Source: Oenococcus kitaharae DSM 17330
GTDB taxonomy: Bacteria; Bacillota; Bacilli; Lactobacillales; Lactobacillaceae
Reading direction: 5' to 3'
DNA: 64,000 nt
Assembly: GCF_000241055.1 (NCBI RefSeq)
Contig: NZ_CM001398.1
Location: 124,001 to 188,000 of the forward strand
A program made the translations under genes and the position numbers. Below are positions 13,681 to 64,000 of this stretch, one piece after another. The first letter of the stretch is position 1. Every line of letters begins with the position of its first letter. The notes under the pieces were generated by a model. That model ran no database searches and was not told where the DNA came from. It saw only the letters and a list, made by a program, of their open reading frames with translations.

Positions 13681-14118
13681 TCACCCAATCAGAAAAAGTA
13701 AATCCGCTGAACAAGCCTTTTCCCCATCAACGGTCGCAACTGCATGAGCGCTGCCGATATTTTCCTTTAATTTATCCAAAGTAACTTCTAACTTTAGCAC
13801 ATCGCCAGGTCGAACCATACGGCGGAATTTAACCTTGTCGACACCACCAAAATAAGGTGTCTTGCCGGCAAAACGATCCATTTTAAGCAAGGCAATTGCG
13901 CCAGCCTGCGCCAAAGATTCAACGATTAAAACGCCAGGCATGACTGGGTTGCCAGGAAAATGACCCTGAAAAAATTCTTCATTGATCGTGACGTTTTTCT
14001 GTGCTTTGATGCTTTCTCCAGGAACTAATTCCAAGACTTTGTCAACCAGCAGCATCGGATAACGATGCGGTAAAACAGCTTGAATTTCTTCAGCTGTCAT
14101 TTCAATTTTTTCTGTCAT
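13681..14118 (-). CDS. fabZ: 3-hydroxyacyl-ACP dehydratase FabZ
   Basis: Dehydrates 3-hydroxyacyl-ACP to trans-2-enoyl-ACP in each elongation cycle. 145 aa single hot-dog domain. The active-site histidine and glutamate are present in [20 protein letters not shown] (His52 and Glu66 by count from the ATG, to within a residue or two). It overlaps accB by 4 nt (ATGA). This is the catalytically intact paralogue; a second FabZ-like gene at the head of the operon has lost the His motif. Confidence 0.96.
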
Positions 14119-15870: not shown

Positions 15871-16602
15871 TCAAACCATGGCCAGGCCGCCATCAACTGT
15901 AATGACTTGGCCTGTCACATAATCGTTTTCCGCTAAAAAGACGGCCGTTTGAGCCACTTCATCAGGCTGGCCGAAATGGCCTAGCGGAATTTCGGATTTT
16001 AATTTTTCTTGTGTCTTTTCAGATAAAACGGCTACCATATCTGTCTCGATCATGCCAGGTGTAATCGCATTGCAACGTACATTCCTGCGGGCCGCTTCTC
16101 TGGCGATTGTCTTTGTCATGCCAATCAGGCCGGCTTTGCTGGCAGCGTAATTTACCTGGCCAACATTACCTATTAACGCAACAACACTGGAAATATTTAT
16201 AATGCAGCCGCTGCGGGCACGATACATAGCTTTTAGTGCAGGCTGTGTCACATTAAAGCTGCCAATCAAGTTGGTCTCGATCGGTGCCTTAAAATCTTCC
16301 AAAGTCATGCGATTAGCCAGCATATCACGTGTGATACCAGCGTTGTTCACTAAAATGTCTAACTGGCCAAAATGTGCAAGTGCCTGAGCAACCATCTCCT
16401 GTGCTTCAGAAGCATCCGCCACATCACCCGTCACAGCAAACACACGCTGCGAATCAGTAAATTCAGCTAATACTTGTTCCGGAACATTTTTGCGGCCGTT
16501 TAAAACAACTCGGCATCCGGCTTGATAAAAAGCTTTGGCTATTGCCAGCCCGATACCGCGTGTACTTCCAGTAACCAAAACTGTTTTATTTTGTAAATCC
16601 AT
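15871..16602 (-). CDS. fabG: 3-oxoacyl-ACP reductase
   Basis: NADPH-dependent reduction of 3-oxoacyl-ACP. 243 aa short-chain dehydrogenase with the cofactor motif TGSTRGIG (residues 11-18), NNAG, and a catalytic Ser139-Tyr152-Lys156 set (NISSVVALIGN and NYAASK). GGAGG site before the ATG. Lies between fabD and fabF as in other LAB fab clusters. Confidence 0.96.
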   Translation of the reverse strand: MDLQNKTVLVTGSTRGIGLAIAKAFYQAGCRVVLNGRKNVPEQVLAEFTDSQRVFAVTGDVADASEAQEMVAQALAHFGQLDILVNNAGITRDMLANRMTLEDFKAPIETNLIGSFNVTQPALKAMYRARSGCIINISSVVALIGNVGQVNYAASKAGLIGMTKTIAREAARRNVRCNAITPGMIETDMVAVLSEKTQEKLKSEIPLGHFGQPDEVAQTAVFLAENDYVTGQVITVDGGLAMV

Positions 16603-16622: not shown

Positions 16623-17555
16623 TCAGTTTGAGACTGCTGCTAATGCTTCATCCAATGATTGCGCATCACTGACAGCCTGATAACTGTCGAGTTTGATTGT
16701 TTTTTTAGCGAAGCTCACCAAAGAATGGCCAGGACCTAATTCAATGACGTGAGTCACACCTTGACGCTGCAATTCTAATAAGCAATCTGTAAAACGGGTC
16801 GATGACACCATCTGCCGACTTAATGTCTCCTTGATTGTGTCCGCTTGAAAAGCTTGGCCTGTCGTGTTGCTGATCACATTGATCGCCATTGGCCGAAAAT
16901 CAGTTTCGGCTAATTCCTGAACAAATTGATCATTAGCTGTTGCCATCAAAGGCGTATGAAAAGCACCACTGACCGGCAAATCGACGATCCGCTTGATACC
17001 GGCTTCCGTTAATTTCGAAACTGCTGCAGCCACAGCTTGTGTCTGGCCACCAATCACCGTCTGCTTGGGAAAATTATAGTTAGCCGGCTGAACAATCTGA
17101 TTAGTCTCCTGCGAAATTTCTCGGCAGACGCGTTCAATTAAATCAGTATCAGTACTCATGACAGCTGCCATAGCGCCAGGAAAAGCTTCACTAGCCTGCT
17201 GCATTAAATCGGCACGTTTTTGAATCAGACGAAAAGCAGCGTCCCATTCTAATGCGCCAGCCGCTGCTAAAGCACTGTATTCTCCTAAACTCAAGCCAAC
17301 TAAAGCCTGTGCTGCGGGCAATTGATTAGAGATAACTCGGTACAAGGCTGTACTCAGCGTAAAGATAGCAGGCTGAGCAAAACGCGTTTGTTCTAAACGT
17401 ACATCTCCGGTCTGCCACATTTGCCAGAAATCAATGCCAGAGATCTCCGCAGCTCTTTGAAACACTTTAGAAAAAGCTGGAGAACTTTCATATAATCGGC
17501 TGTCCAAAGGGGCAATTTTGCCGCCTTGTCCGCTAAATAAATAAGCTAACTTAAT
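16623..17555 (-). CDS. fabD: Malonyl-CoA:ACP transacylase, probable ATT start
   Basis: Transfers malonyl from CoA to ACP. The nucleophile is Ser89 in GLSLGEYSAL. The first conventional start codon in this frame is TTG at 17507, but it would remove the conserved N-terminal GQG oxyanion motif. The open frame continues upstream and encodes KLAYLFSGQGGKIAPL, an obvious FabD N-terminus. Between the in-frame stop (17592-17594) and that segment there is no ATG, GTG or TTG. GGAGG at 17564-17568 is followed, 8 nt later, by ATT at 17553-17555, giving 310 aa, the family's usual length. Overlaps the fabK stop by 5 nt, so coupling is likely. Confidence 0.9.
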   Translation of the reverse strand: MKLAYLFSGQGGKIAPLDSRLYESSPAFSKVFQRAAEISGIDFWQMWQTGDVRLEQTRFAQPAIFTLSTALYRVISNQLPAAQALVGLSLGEYSALAAAGALEWDAAFRLIQKRADLMQQASEAFPGAMAAVMSTDTDLIERVCREISQETNQIVQPANYNFPKQTVIGGQTQAVAAAVSKLTEAGIKRIVDLPVSGAFHTPLMATANDQFVQELAETDFRPMAINVISNTTGQAFQADTIKETLSRQMVSSTRFTDCLLELQRQGVTHVIELGPGHSLVSFAKKTIKLDSYQAVSDAQSLDEALAAVSN

Positions 17556-18510
17556 TTTCTTGTCCTCCGAGCAGTGCCGCCGCCTGATCAGTCACTTCCT
17601 GCAAAATTTCAGAAGCAGGCTGGATCTTGTTGACTAATCCAGAAATTTCACCGGCCATATAGGCACCTTGTTCAGGATCGCCAGTCTGCACAGCACGCCT
17701 TAAGCTGCCGTTGCCAAGTTCTTCAACCGCTGCATAATCAGGATTATCGTTTTGTGCTTCGCCTTTTTCATTGCGGATATAATGCGTCGCCATTTTGTTT
17801 TTCAAAACACGCGCTGGATGACCAATATATTGACCAGTCACAAGTGTGTCGATGTCTTTAGCTTTTAAAACAGCTTCTTTATATAGCGGATGGATGTGAC
17901 ATTCTTCAGCCACAAGAAAACGTGTACCCATTTGTACACCTTGTGCACCCAGCATCATAGAAGCTGCCAAGCCGCGTCCATCACCAATACCGCCAGCAGC
18001 TATCACAGGAATATCGACTGCATCGACAACCTGCGGCACCAGAGCCATCGTTGTCATTCGGCCAATATGCCCACCGGATTCCATACCTTCAGCAATCACG
18101 GCATCAACACCTTCCCGTTCCATAATCCGAGCCATACCGGTGGATGGAACAACAGGGATAACACGAATACCCGCTTGTTGAAAAGCAGCTAAATATTCAG
18201 AGGGATTGCCAGCACCAGTTGTTACCAATGCGATTGAGTCCTTCTCTGCCAAAATCACTTCAATGACTTCTTTAACATGCGGAGAAAGCAGCATCACATT
18301 AATACCAAATGGGCGCTTGGTCAAAGACTTGGCGACCTCAATTTCGTGTCGAACCACATCAGCTGGTGCGTGGCCGGAACCAATAATTCCCATGCCGCCG
18401 GCGTTCGAAACAGCAGCTGCCAGTTTCCCATCTGCCACCCAAGCCATGCCGCCCTGAAAAATCGGATAACGCAAACCGAGTGATTTGAAAAACGGACTCA
18501 ATAATTCCAT
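17551..18510 (-). CDS. fabK: Enoyl-ACP reductase II (FMN-dependent)
   Basis: Reduces trans-2-enoyl-ACP, the last step of each elongation cycle; this flavoprotein replaces FabI in many LAB. 319 aa TIM barrel with YPIFQGGMAWVADGKLAAAV at the N-terminus, ESGGHIGRM, and the FMN-phosphate region VIAAGGIGDGRG. No FabI-like gene is in the window. Lies 5 nt after acpP, and its 3' end carries the Shine-Dalgarno of fabD. Confidence 0.95.
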   Translation of the reverse strand: MELLSPFFKSLGLRYPIFQGGMAWVADGKLAAAVSNAGGMGIIGSGHAPADVVRHEIEVAKSLTKRPFGINVMLLSPHVKEVIEVILAEKDSIALVTTGAGNPSEYLAAFQQAGIRVIPVVPSTGMARIMEREGVDAVIAEGMESGGHIGRMTTMALVPQVVDAVDIPVIAAGGIGDGRGLAASMMLGAQGVQMGTRFLVAEECHIHPLYKEAVLKAKDIDTLVTGQYIGHPARVLKNKMATHYIRNEKGEAQNDNPDYAAVEELGNGSLRRAVQTGDPEQGAYMAGEISGLVNKIQPASEILQEVTDQAAALLGGQEN

Positions 18511-20260: not shown

Positions 20261-20725
20261 TTAATGAACAAGTTCGTCCTTTTCCGGCGAAGCTGTCTCC
20301 TCAGGCGAAACAACGAACAAAAGCTGTGCACTCGCAATCTGTTCTGTGCCAACTGATGCTGTACAATCGACGACACCCATGTTTTCACGCACTTTGGTTA
20401 ATTCAATACTAAGTTCGACCTGTTCGCCTGGAAGCAGCGAACGTACGAACCTTGCTGAGTGAATACCACCCAAGTAGGCCGTCTTATGTGCAAACTTAGG
20501 GGACTTCAGGATCAAAATCGAAGCCGCTTGAGCCAGCATCTCGATAATCAAAATATTCGGAACAGCTGTAATATCCCGCCGTCCCTGCATGAATTGTTCA
20601 TTGACCGTGATATTCTTGACGGCCGTGATTGATTCATCCGGTGTAAATTTCGTGACACCATCAATCCAGGCAATCGGATATCGGTTAGGAATCAAATCAG
20701 CGATTTGTCGAGCATTTAATAACAA
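20261..20725 (-). CDS. FabZ-like hot-dog protein lacking the catalytic His motif
   Basis: First gene of the fab operon, 154 aa, clearly homologous to FabZ over its length (IPNRYPIAWIDGV, NEQFMQG, LIIEMLAQAAS). In FabZ the active site is GHFPGxPxxPGVLxxE; here the aligned stretch is GRRDITAVPNILIIE, one residue shorter, with His replaced by Arg while the Glu remains. DNA for this stretch was re-read and is unambiguous. It could be a non-dehydratase partner, an isomerase-like enzyme with a different mechanism, or a regulator. Starts with TTG after an AAGGAGG site, 21 bp upstream of fabT. Confidence 0.88.
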   Translation of the reverse strand: MLLNARQIADLIPNRYPIAWIDGVTKFTPDESITAVKNITVNEQFMQGRRDITAVPNILIIEMLAQAASILILKSPKFAHKTAYLGGIHSARFVRSLLPGEQVELSIELTKVRENMGVVDCTASVGTEQIASAQLLFVVSPEETASPEKDELVH

Positions 20726-62512: not shown

Positions 62513-62540
62513 AAAAAAAACGCCTTACTTGCCGGCGTTT
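62513..62540 (-). terminator. Terminator overlapping the ABC exporter stop
   Basis: AACGCC-9 nt-GGCGTT with eight T following; the stop codon TAA lies in the loop and the left arm is coding. Confidence 0.85.
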
Positions 62541-64000
62541 TCCATACTCTGCATTTTATAAAGATCGTAATAATAACCTTTTTGAGCTAATAACTGGCGA
62601 TGTGTCCCTTGTTCGACCACAACGCCTTTGTCCAAAACGAGAATCAAATCAGCATCTTTGATCGTCGACAGTCGATGGGCAATGGCAATTGTTGTTCGAT
62701 TGGTTCGCATATTCTTCAGTGCTCTTTGAATAGCTGCCTCAGTCTGCGTATCAATGTTAGCCGTCGCTTCATCGAGAATCAGAATTTTTGGATCCCGGAC
62801 AATGGTTCTCGCAAATGAGATCAACTGTTTCTGTCCAGCCGACAGAGAGGACCCGCCTTCCAAAACTGGTGTTTTATAGCCGTGAGGCAGCGAATCAATG
62901 AATTTATCTGCATCAACAAAACGTGCAGCGTCTACAATCTGCTGATCTGTAATTGAATCATCATACATCCGGATATTTGAATTGATGTCCCCATAAAACA
63001 TGAAACTGTCTTGCAGGACCAGTCCCATTTTTTCCCGAAAATCGACAGGATCCAGATCTCGAATATCCTGTCCATCAATTAAGATACTGCCCTTTTGGAA
63101 CTCATAGAAACGCATCAGCGCATTAATTGTGGACGATTTCCCAGAACCGGTGTGACCGACTAAAGCAATCGTCTGCCCTGGTTCGGCTGTAAAAGAAAGA
63201 TCATGCAGAATAGTTGTCTTGCCGTCATAAGAGAAATCGACGTGGCGAAATTCAATCTTGCCATCAGTAATTTTGCCATTAGCATTCTCGTGCTGAGCAG
63301 GTTCATAAGTCGTATCATCGAGAATCTTACCTGCACGATAACCGGAAACGACGCCATCCTGAAAAGTCGACAAACTTTGCTGCACATTATTCAAGGGATT
63401 AAAAATGTTGCCGATCCAGTTCGTAAAGGCATAAATCGTCCCGCCAGCAACAGCAGCCGTAAAGGACTGATTCCCTAAATACCAGAGAATGAACACTGTC
63501 GTCATACCAAGTAAAAGCTGGTTCATCGGGCCAAGGAGCCGTGAGTCCATTTTGACCATGTGAAAACGTGCATCAAAATATTCCTGATTGATCTTTTCGA
63601 ATTCACTCTTCATGCGTGTTTCTTGATGAAAGTTCTGAATGGTCTCGATGCCATTGATCGATTCAGCCAATTTAGCATTCAGAGCGGACAATTTAGCACG
63701 CATATTACGGTAAACACTTGAAGAATACTTTTGATAAACCCAGATCGTCAGCAAAGTCACAGGAACGATTAATAGCAGCCAATAGGACAAACCTGGATCT
63801 GAAGCGAACATAAAGATATACACACTAATGATTGAAGCAACCGCATAAATTAAATTGACCAGCAGCATCCAAAAATCAAAAAACGATTCAGTATCATTCA
63901 TAACTCGTGTAACAAGTGCACCGCCAGGAACCTGATCAAAATAACGCATACCCAGTTGATGCAGTTTGGCATATAGACGCTTACGAACGTTATTTAAAGC
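62525..64000 (-). CDS. ABC multidrug-type exporter half-transporter (partial)
   Basis: Half-size ABC exporter, membrane domain fused to ATPase. About 491 codons visible; the frame is open at base 64000, so the N-terminal part of the membrane domain is missing. Coupling region RYFDQVPGGALVTRVMNDTE, Walker A VGHTGSGKSS, signature SLSAGQKQLISFARTI, Walker B ILILDEATANID. It resembles the LmrD/YheH-type partner of heterodimeric exporters, so another half may lie upstream outside the window. An internal ATG at 63949 is not the true start. Confidence 0.9.
   Translation of the reverse strand, partial: ALNNVRKRLYAKLHQLGMRYFDQVPGGALVTRVMNDTESFFDFWMLLVNLIYAVASIISVYIFMFASDPGLSYWLLLIVPVTLLTIWVYQKYSSSVYRNMRAKLSALNAKLAESINGIETIQNFHQETRMKSEFEKINQEYFDARFHMVKMDSRLLGPMNQLLLGMTTVFILWYLGNQSFTAAVAGGTIYAFTNWIGNIFNPLNNVQQSLSTFQDGVVSGYRAGKILDDTTYEPAQHENANGKITDGKIEFRHVDFSYDGKTTILHDLSFTAEPGQTIALVGHTGSGKSSTINALMRFYEFQKGSILIDGQDIRDLDPVDFREKMGLVLQDSFMFYGDINSNIRMYDDSITDQQIVDAARFVDADKFIDSLPHGYKTPVLEGGSSLSAGQKQLISFARTIVRDPKILILDEATANIDTQTEAAIQRALKNMRTNRTTIAIAHRLSTIKDADLILVLDKGVVVEQGTHRQLLAQKGYYYDLYKMQSMENAGK

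Follow-up and report, generated by a model that had tools for sequence, protein, structure and literature searches.

The window, which is the whole 64-kb stretch of Oenococcus kitaharae DSM 17330 DNA analysed here, carries on its minus strand a fatty-acid synthesis cluster that is presumably an operon. The cluster includes a MarR-type regulator, fabH, acpP, fabK, fabD, fabG, fabF, accB, fabZ, and accC, of which fabD, fabK, and acpP were named by profile and the other genes by reading the sequence. The enoyl-ACP reductase gene fabK (17551..18510, minus strand) matches TIGR03151 with E=4.5e-134 and 446.5 bits, just under the cut-off of 453.1. Directly downstream lies fabD (16623..17555, minus strand), which encodes a malonyl-CoA:ACP transacylase of 310 aa when read from an ATT codon. 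It matches TIGR00128, the NCBIfam fabD profile, with E=3.2e-74 and 250 bits, a score below the curated cut-off of 260.9, which is exceeded in only 9 of 201 family genomes, and its best solved relative is 3im8 (E=3.3e-60). The match to the family is nearly full-length, with the GQG and GLSLGEYSA motifs present, and it is the only fabD match in the 1.84 Mb genome. The next gene, fabG (15871..16602, minus strand; named by reading the sequence), has an ATG start with a Shine-Dalgarno (SD) motif 13-15 nt upstream. Reading of the cluster also shows two FabZ-like dehydratase genes on the minus strand (13681-14118 and 20261-20725), one of which may be an isomerase-type enzyme for unsaturated fatty acids.

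The FabD N-terminus, KLAYLFSGQGG, is encoded on the minus strand upstream of the first in-frame ATG, GTG, or TTG, as is evident from direct reading of the sequence. The closest in-frame stop is a TGA 13 codons upstream of the ATT (17592..17594), and the 12 intervening codons include no ATG, GTG, or TTG. After this TGA the fabD frame reads CTG ATC AGG CGG CGG CAC TGC TCG GAG GAC AAG AAA ATT AAG TTA GCT TAT TTA TTT AGC GGA CAA GGC. The first canonical codon is a TTG at 17505..17507, which is codon 17 when the ATT is counted as the first and lies 3' of the GQG motif. It was the start picked by the ORF lister and is rejected here. The ATT (AUU) at 17553..17555 is homologous to the initiator methionine by both profile and alignment. 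TIGR00128 places the lysine after the ATT at model position 2 in each of the five fabD-bearing Oenococcus genomes, so that the ATT itself falls on position 1. Likewise, alignments with the best-matching solved FabD structures begin at query residue 1 or 2. The sequence-only reading had placed the GQG-containing N-terminus upstream of the first TTG and had located a GGAGG 8 nt before the ATT, and both statements agree with the coordinates found here (GGAGG at 17568-17564, ATT at 17555-17553). Its expectation that automated calling would truncate the gene was borne out by the simple ORF caller, which chose the TTG at 17507.

The fabD start is embedded in the end of fabK. The fabK 3' end reads GGA GGA CAA GAA AAT TAA, and the same bases in the fabD frame are GAG GAC AAG AAA ATT AAG. 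The fabK TAA stop (17551..17553, minus strand) begins with the T that ends the fabD ATT (ATTAA). With this one base in common the spacing is -5 nt, and the arrangement is identical in all five Oenococcus fabD loci. This start-in-stop arrangement is a structural point that was absent from the earlier reading. Across 2.66 million gene pairs surveyed, -5 overlaps were more than 1,000-fold rarer than -4 overlaps; they were described as incompatible with NTG starts, and annotation errors or the use of ATT were suggested for the cases seen (PMC10666635). Any start in the -5 register must end in T, and the rare codon is therefore tied to the overlap. The position of the ATT inside the fabK stop codon thus offers an alternative reason for a start ending in T. 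The spacing of -5 nt lies within the range of about -8 to +6 nt given for termination-reinitiation pairs (PMC10666635). The fabK-fabD junction of Oenococcus is, on the sequence evidence, a homology-supported and genus-conserved -5 nt overlap, which recurs in five genomes with its frame fixed by homology.

The SD-like GGAGG of fabD (17564..17568, minus strand) lies within the Gly-Gly codons of fabK, and its duplex with the 16S tail has an energy of -9.5 kcal/mol. The tail, GGATCACCTCCTTTCT, is present in two copies in the genome. Pairing energies for fabD range from -9.3 to -14.1 kcal/mol in Oenococcus, against -19.2 to -1.2 kcal/mol for 41 of the 61 ORFs of the window, and the fabD SD is therefore of ordinary strength relative to these 41 genes. 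By duplex energy, which is not the exact criterion used in PMC13009471, the SD core comprises 5-6 pairs in four Oenococcus genomes (-9.3 to -10.5 kcal/mol in G000 to G003) and is longer in the fifth (-14.1 kcal/mol in G004). No shared mRNA structure was seen around the fabD start when computed foldings of the five species were judged by eye. The string GGAGG-N5-9-ATTAA occurs at 10 sites in the genome, against 12 for a reversed-pattern control, and only the fabD site among the 10 links the end of a long ORF to a long ORF without a nearby canonical start. Since the string is not enriched, the case rests on conservation and not on motif counts. When the 61 main ORFs of the window were examined by eye for conservation ahead of their first canonical codon, only fabD stood out as having an unusual start; most ORFs were judged without a profile test, and the one at 62525-63949 is truncated at the edge of the window.

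The search for fabD covered seven Oenococcus genomes (G000 to G006, G000 being that of the window) and located the gene in five of them (G000 to G004). The nearest relative is G001, probably O. kitaharae CRBO2176, with a FabD 98% identical to that of the window, and G002 is probably O. oeni DSM 20252. Neither fabD nor fabK was found in G005 and G006, whose assemblies are only 65-68% complete, and these two genomes are hence uninformative about the start; the gap reflects either missing sequence or a loss of fatty-acid synthesis. The ATT stands at the homologous codon in all five genomes with fabD, preceded by GGAGG (GGGGG in G003) and an 8-nt spacer, and its final T is in each case common with the fabK TAA. 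A comparison of this junction in related species had been suggested by the sequence-only reading, and the rare codon proves to be conserved. Its central proposal, that fabD starts with ATT, thereby gains strong support, together with the assignment to profile position 1. It had also considered ATT, ATC, and CTG to be the sole options for initiation. The lack of any ATG, GTG, or TTG holds true, but CTG and ATC cannot be the conserved start because an in-frame TAG separates their region from the ATT in G003 and G004. By conservation, then, the start of Oenococcus fabD is very likely the ATT.

Canonical starts prevail in FabD outside the genus. A total of 122 family junctions was assembled (30 + 92 loci), 10 genomes with a weaker best FabD match (E about 1e-28 or worse) being left out. 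All 117 of the non-Oenococcus junctions have a canonical start 5 to 14 codons before the GQG motif (ATG in 85, TTG in 29, and GTG in 3). In L009, one of these loci (minus strand of genome G118, genus g21), the codon homologous to the start is CTG; the locus was scored by two alternative GTGs, lying three and four codons farther upstream, and not by the CTG. In a wider set of FabD-like loci from genome contigs, 71 of 77 non-Oenococcus members were used, and the other 6 match only from query residue 53-54. A canonical start lies 5-20 codons before GQG in 67 of the 71. The remaining four have a canonical start only farther upstream, in frames with no stop for at least 168 codons ahead of GQG, and are taken as internal domains of longer proteins. 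On viral contigs, 61 stretches fit a peptide pattern and none of them encodes a relative.

A FabK-like tail before fabD was recognised in 20 of the 122 family junctions and in none of the other 102. These 20 comprise the 5 Oenococcus loci, 8 other FabK-like loci, and 7 that were set aside by eye as non-FabK. The fabK stop to fabD start spacing in the 8 non-Oenococcus loci ranges from -8 to +5 nt. In L008, from a g21 relative, GGTGGT precedes the fabD start by 7 nt, a distance also seen in Oenococcus, but fabK stops earlier, at +1, one codon past the two glycines. This earlier stop implies that in Oenococcus the former fabK stop was probably lost and replaced by one lying on the start of fabD.

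Other positions for the start were weighed against the ATT. The TTG at 17507 was called mechanically by the ORF lister. A start there would remove the GQG motif, which all 11 aligned FabDs share without change, and none of five SD motifs scanned falls within 25 nt of it. The codon is TTG in G001 and not in G002, G003, or G004. The idea that the ATT is instead a sequencing error would require the same error across five genomes, which is not credible, and a truncated FabD or a false ATT can be practically dismissed. A separate possibility is that the start differs between species (ATG in G004, TTG in O. oeni, and in O. kitaharae CTG or some other codon) and that the ATT is just an internal isoleucine codon. 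In-frame candidates do exist in three genomes. G001 has one TTG 20 codons upstream of the ATT and another as codon 6, neither of them common to other species; O. oeni has a TTG 5 codons upstream; and G004 (locus L004) has an ATG 2 codons upstream (MPIKLAY...). However, in O. oeni the TTG overlaps the SD and in G004 the ATG lies 2 nt after GGAGG, whereas in two of the five species (G000 and G003) the stretch from the upstream stop to GQG contains no canonical codon at all. Only the ATT is common to all five with correct spacing, which makes species-specific starts improbable. The ATG of G004 may mark the beginning of a departure from ATT. Production of FabD as a fusion to FabK, through a +1 frameshift at the end of fabK, would be in keeping with the overlapping frames and with a fabK stop that lies within an A/T run. 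It is very improbable nonetheless, as AAU or CAU slipping to AUU would by inspection leave P-site mismatches, the codon before the stop varies among the species, and FabK and FabD each have a near-complete and separate family match.

The preferred reading, held with considerable confidence, is that fabD would be initiated at AUU by ribosomes, or their 30S subunits, that end fabK at UAA and re-initiate to give full-length FabD. The AUU shares a base with the fabK UAA and GGAGG lies 8 nt before it, so a ribosome terminating FabK would already sit over both the fabD start and its SD-like sequence. This ribosome or its 30S subunit would then re-initiate with fMet-tRNA at AUU, and the resulting FabD would begin (f)Met-Lys-Leu-Ala-Tyr-Leu-Phe-Ser-Gly-Gln-Gly. 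We infer from the sequence that AUU is used in vivo and coupled to fabK, with a lower yield of FabD and a sensitivity to the level of IF3 as the expected outcomes. Spacings of -4 to +3 nt are reported to give the most efficient coupling (PMC12548453). In E. coli, raised IF3 led to less re-initiation, and the effect was smaller with an SD present (PMC2268962). In poor medium, AUU and AUA starts of S. aureus gave about 10% of the AUG level (PMC13009471). Counting against the proposal, ATT was a weak start in E. coli, at about 0.3% of ATG (Hecht 2017, cited in PMC10666635). The GTC start of Streptomyces sigR is repressed by IF3 (PMC5472188), and an IF3-dependent control of fabD is possible. A further step is that the -5 overlap is maintained across the genus because re-initiation at AUU keeps FabD low relative to FabK, the IF3 level tuning the supply of malonyl-ACP; this suggestion is tentative and at present rather doubtful.

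The AUU may instead serve as the start with no regulatory meaning. Here fabK would have lost its earlier stop, the new stop would have fallen on the fabD start, and the codon would have been trapped by the -5 overlap, its weakness being tolerable through coupling to fabK. This account is given slightly less than an even chance. The L008 junction speaks for it, with a fabD start at the same distance from GGNGGN and a fabK stop at +1, as does the restriction of a -5 overlap to starts that end in T (PMC10666635). MutS1 (TIGR01070) gave no match above the curated cut-off in any of the seven Oenococcus genomes, two of them incomplete, and weaker MutS-family matches in all; this would favour drift. 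Against a trapped codon stands a simple escape. A single T-to-G substitution would turn the ATT into ATG and the fabK TAA into GAA, lengthening FabK by 6 aa in four of the five species and by 13 in G003. This change is a small cost to FabK, and its absence from all five genomes counts in favour of selection for ATT, as do the MutS1 result and the hypermutability described for O. oeni (PMC6498615). The identity at 4-fold sites of fabD is near-random between deep lineages (0.28-0.46), so that a free site would have drifted; it is 0.63 between G002 and G004 and 0.81 between G000 and G001. Part of the conservation of the A and first T of ATT could come from fabK, as both bases lie in its last codon, AAT (Asn) in four species and CAT (His) in one. 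Within the three-codon tail of FabK, two further columns show no variation either, and the glycine pair encoded by the SD belongs to FabK as well. The weakness of ATT may or may not itself be under selection.

Weak starts are found elsewhere in these genomes. The apparent infC start is an ATA preceded by GGAGG in all 6 Oenococcus loci (L111-L116, upstream of position 1501, coding strand), and it is ATA (29) or ATC (1) in the 30 family loci (L221-L250) returned for 41 family genomes, which implies that weak infC starts are retained in these bacteria. Such an infC start is invisible to ORF callers confined to ATG, GTG, and TTG. E. coli pcnB has an AUU start outside infC, as in fabD; unlike fabD, it is not known to have a stop/start overlap. 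The infC gene (AUU, AUA, or AUC start) resembles fabD in its weak, conserved, non-canonical start, ATA in the same genomes, but in E. coli it is regulated by its own product (PMC5472188), whereas the product of fabD is a metabolic enzyme and the gene overlaps the stop codon before it. Among the Bacillota, cvfC1 (AUU) and ccpN (AUA) of S. aureus likewise have conserved starts of this kind; they show extended SD pairing (PMC13009471). In G000, fabD has a plain GGAGG, and it overlaps the preceding stop codon. Similarly, Streptomyces sigR has a conserved non-canonical start outside infC; its codon is different (GTC), and repression by IF3 was demonstrated for sigR (PMC5472188), whereas for fabD a response to IF3 is a prediction. 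Coupled pairs with -4 or -1 nt overlaps are co-directional like fabK-fabD, with a spacing indicative of termination-reinitiation (PMC6728339; PMC10666635), whereas the -5 nt of fabK-fabD is called impossible with canonical starts in PMC10666635. No report combining fabD, AUU, and start codon was found in the literature searched, and no title or abstract opening among the matches listed was on the fabD start codon.

ORF callers restricted to ATG, GTG, and TTG would truncate or misplace the N-terminus of Oenococcus FabD. The fabK-fabD junction of this genus provides a conserved example of a -5 nt overlap that is impossible for canonical starts, and it assigns an AUU start to a gene of fatty-acid synthesis with a single match in the genome. 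With this example, the efficiency of re-initiation at a non-canonical codon lying on a just-used stop can be tested in harmless bacteria, as can any influence of IF3 on fatty-acid synthesis.
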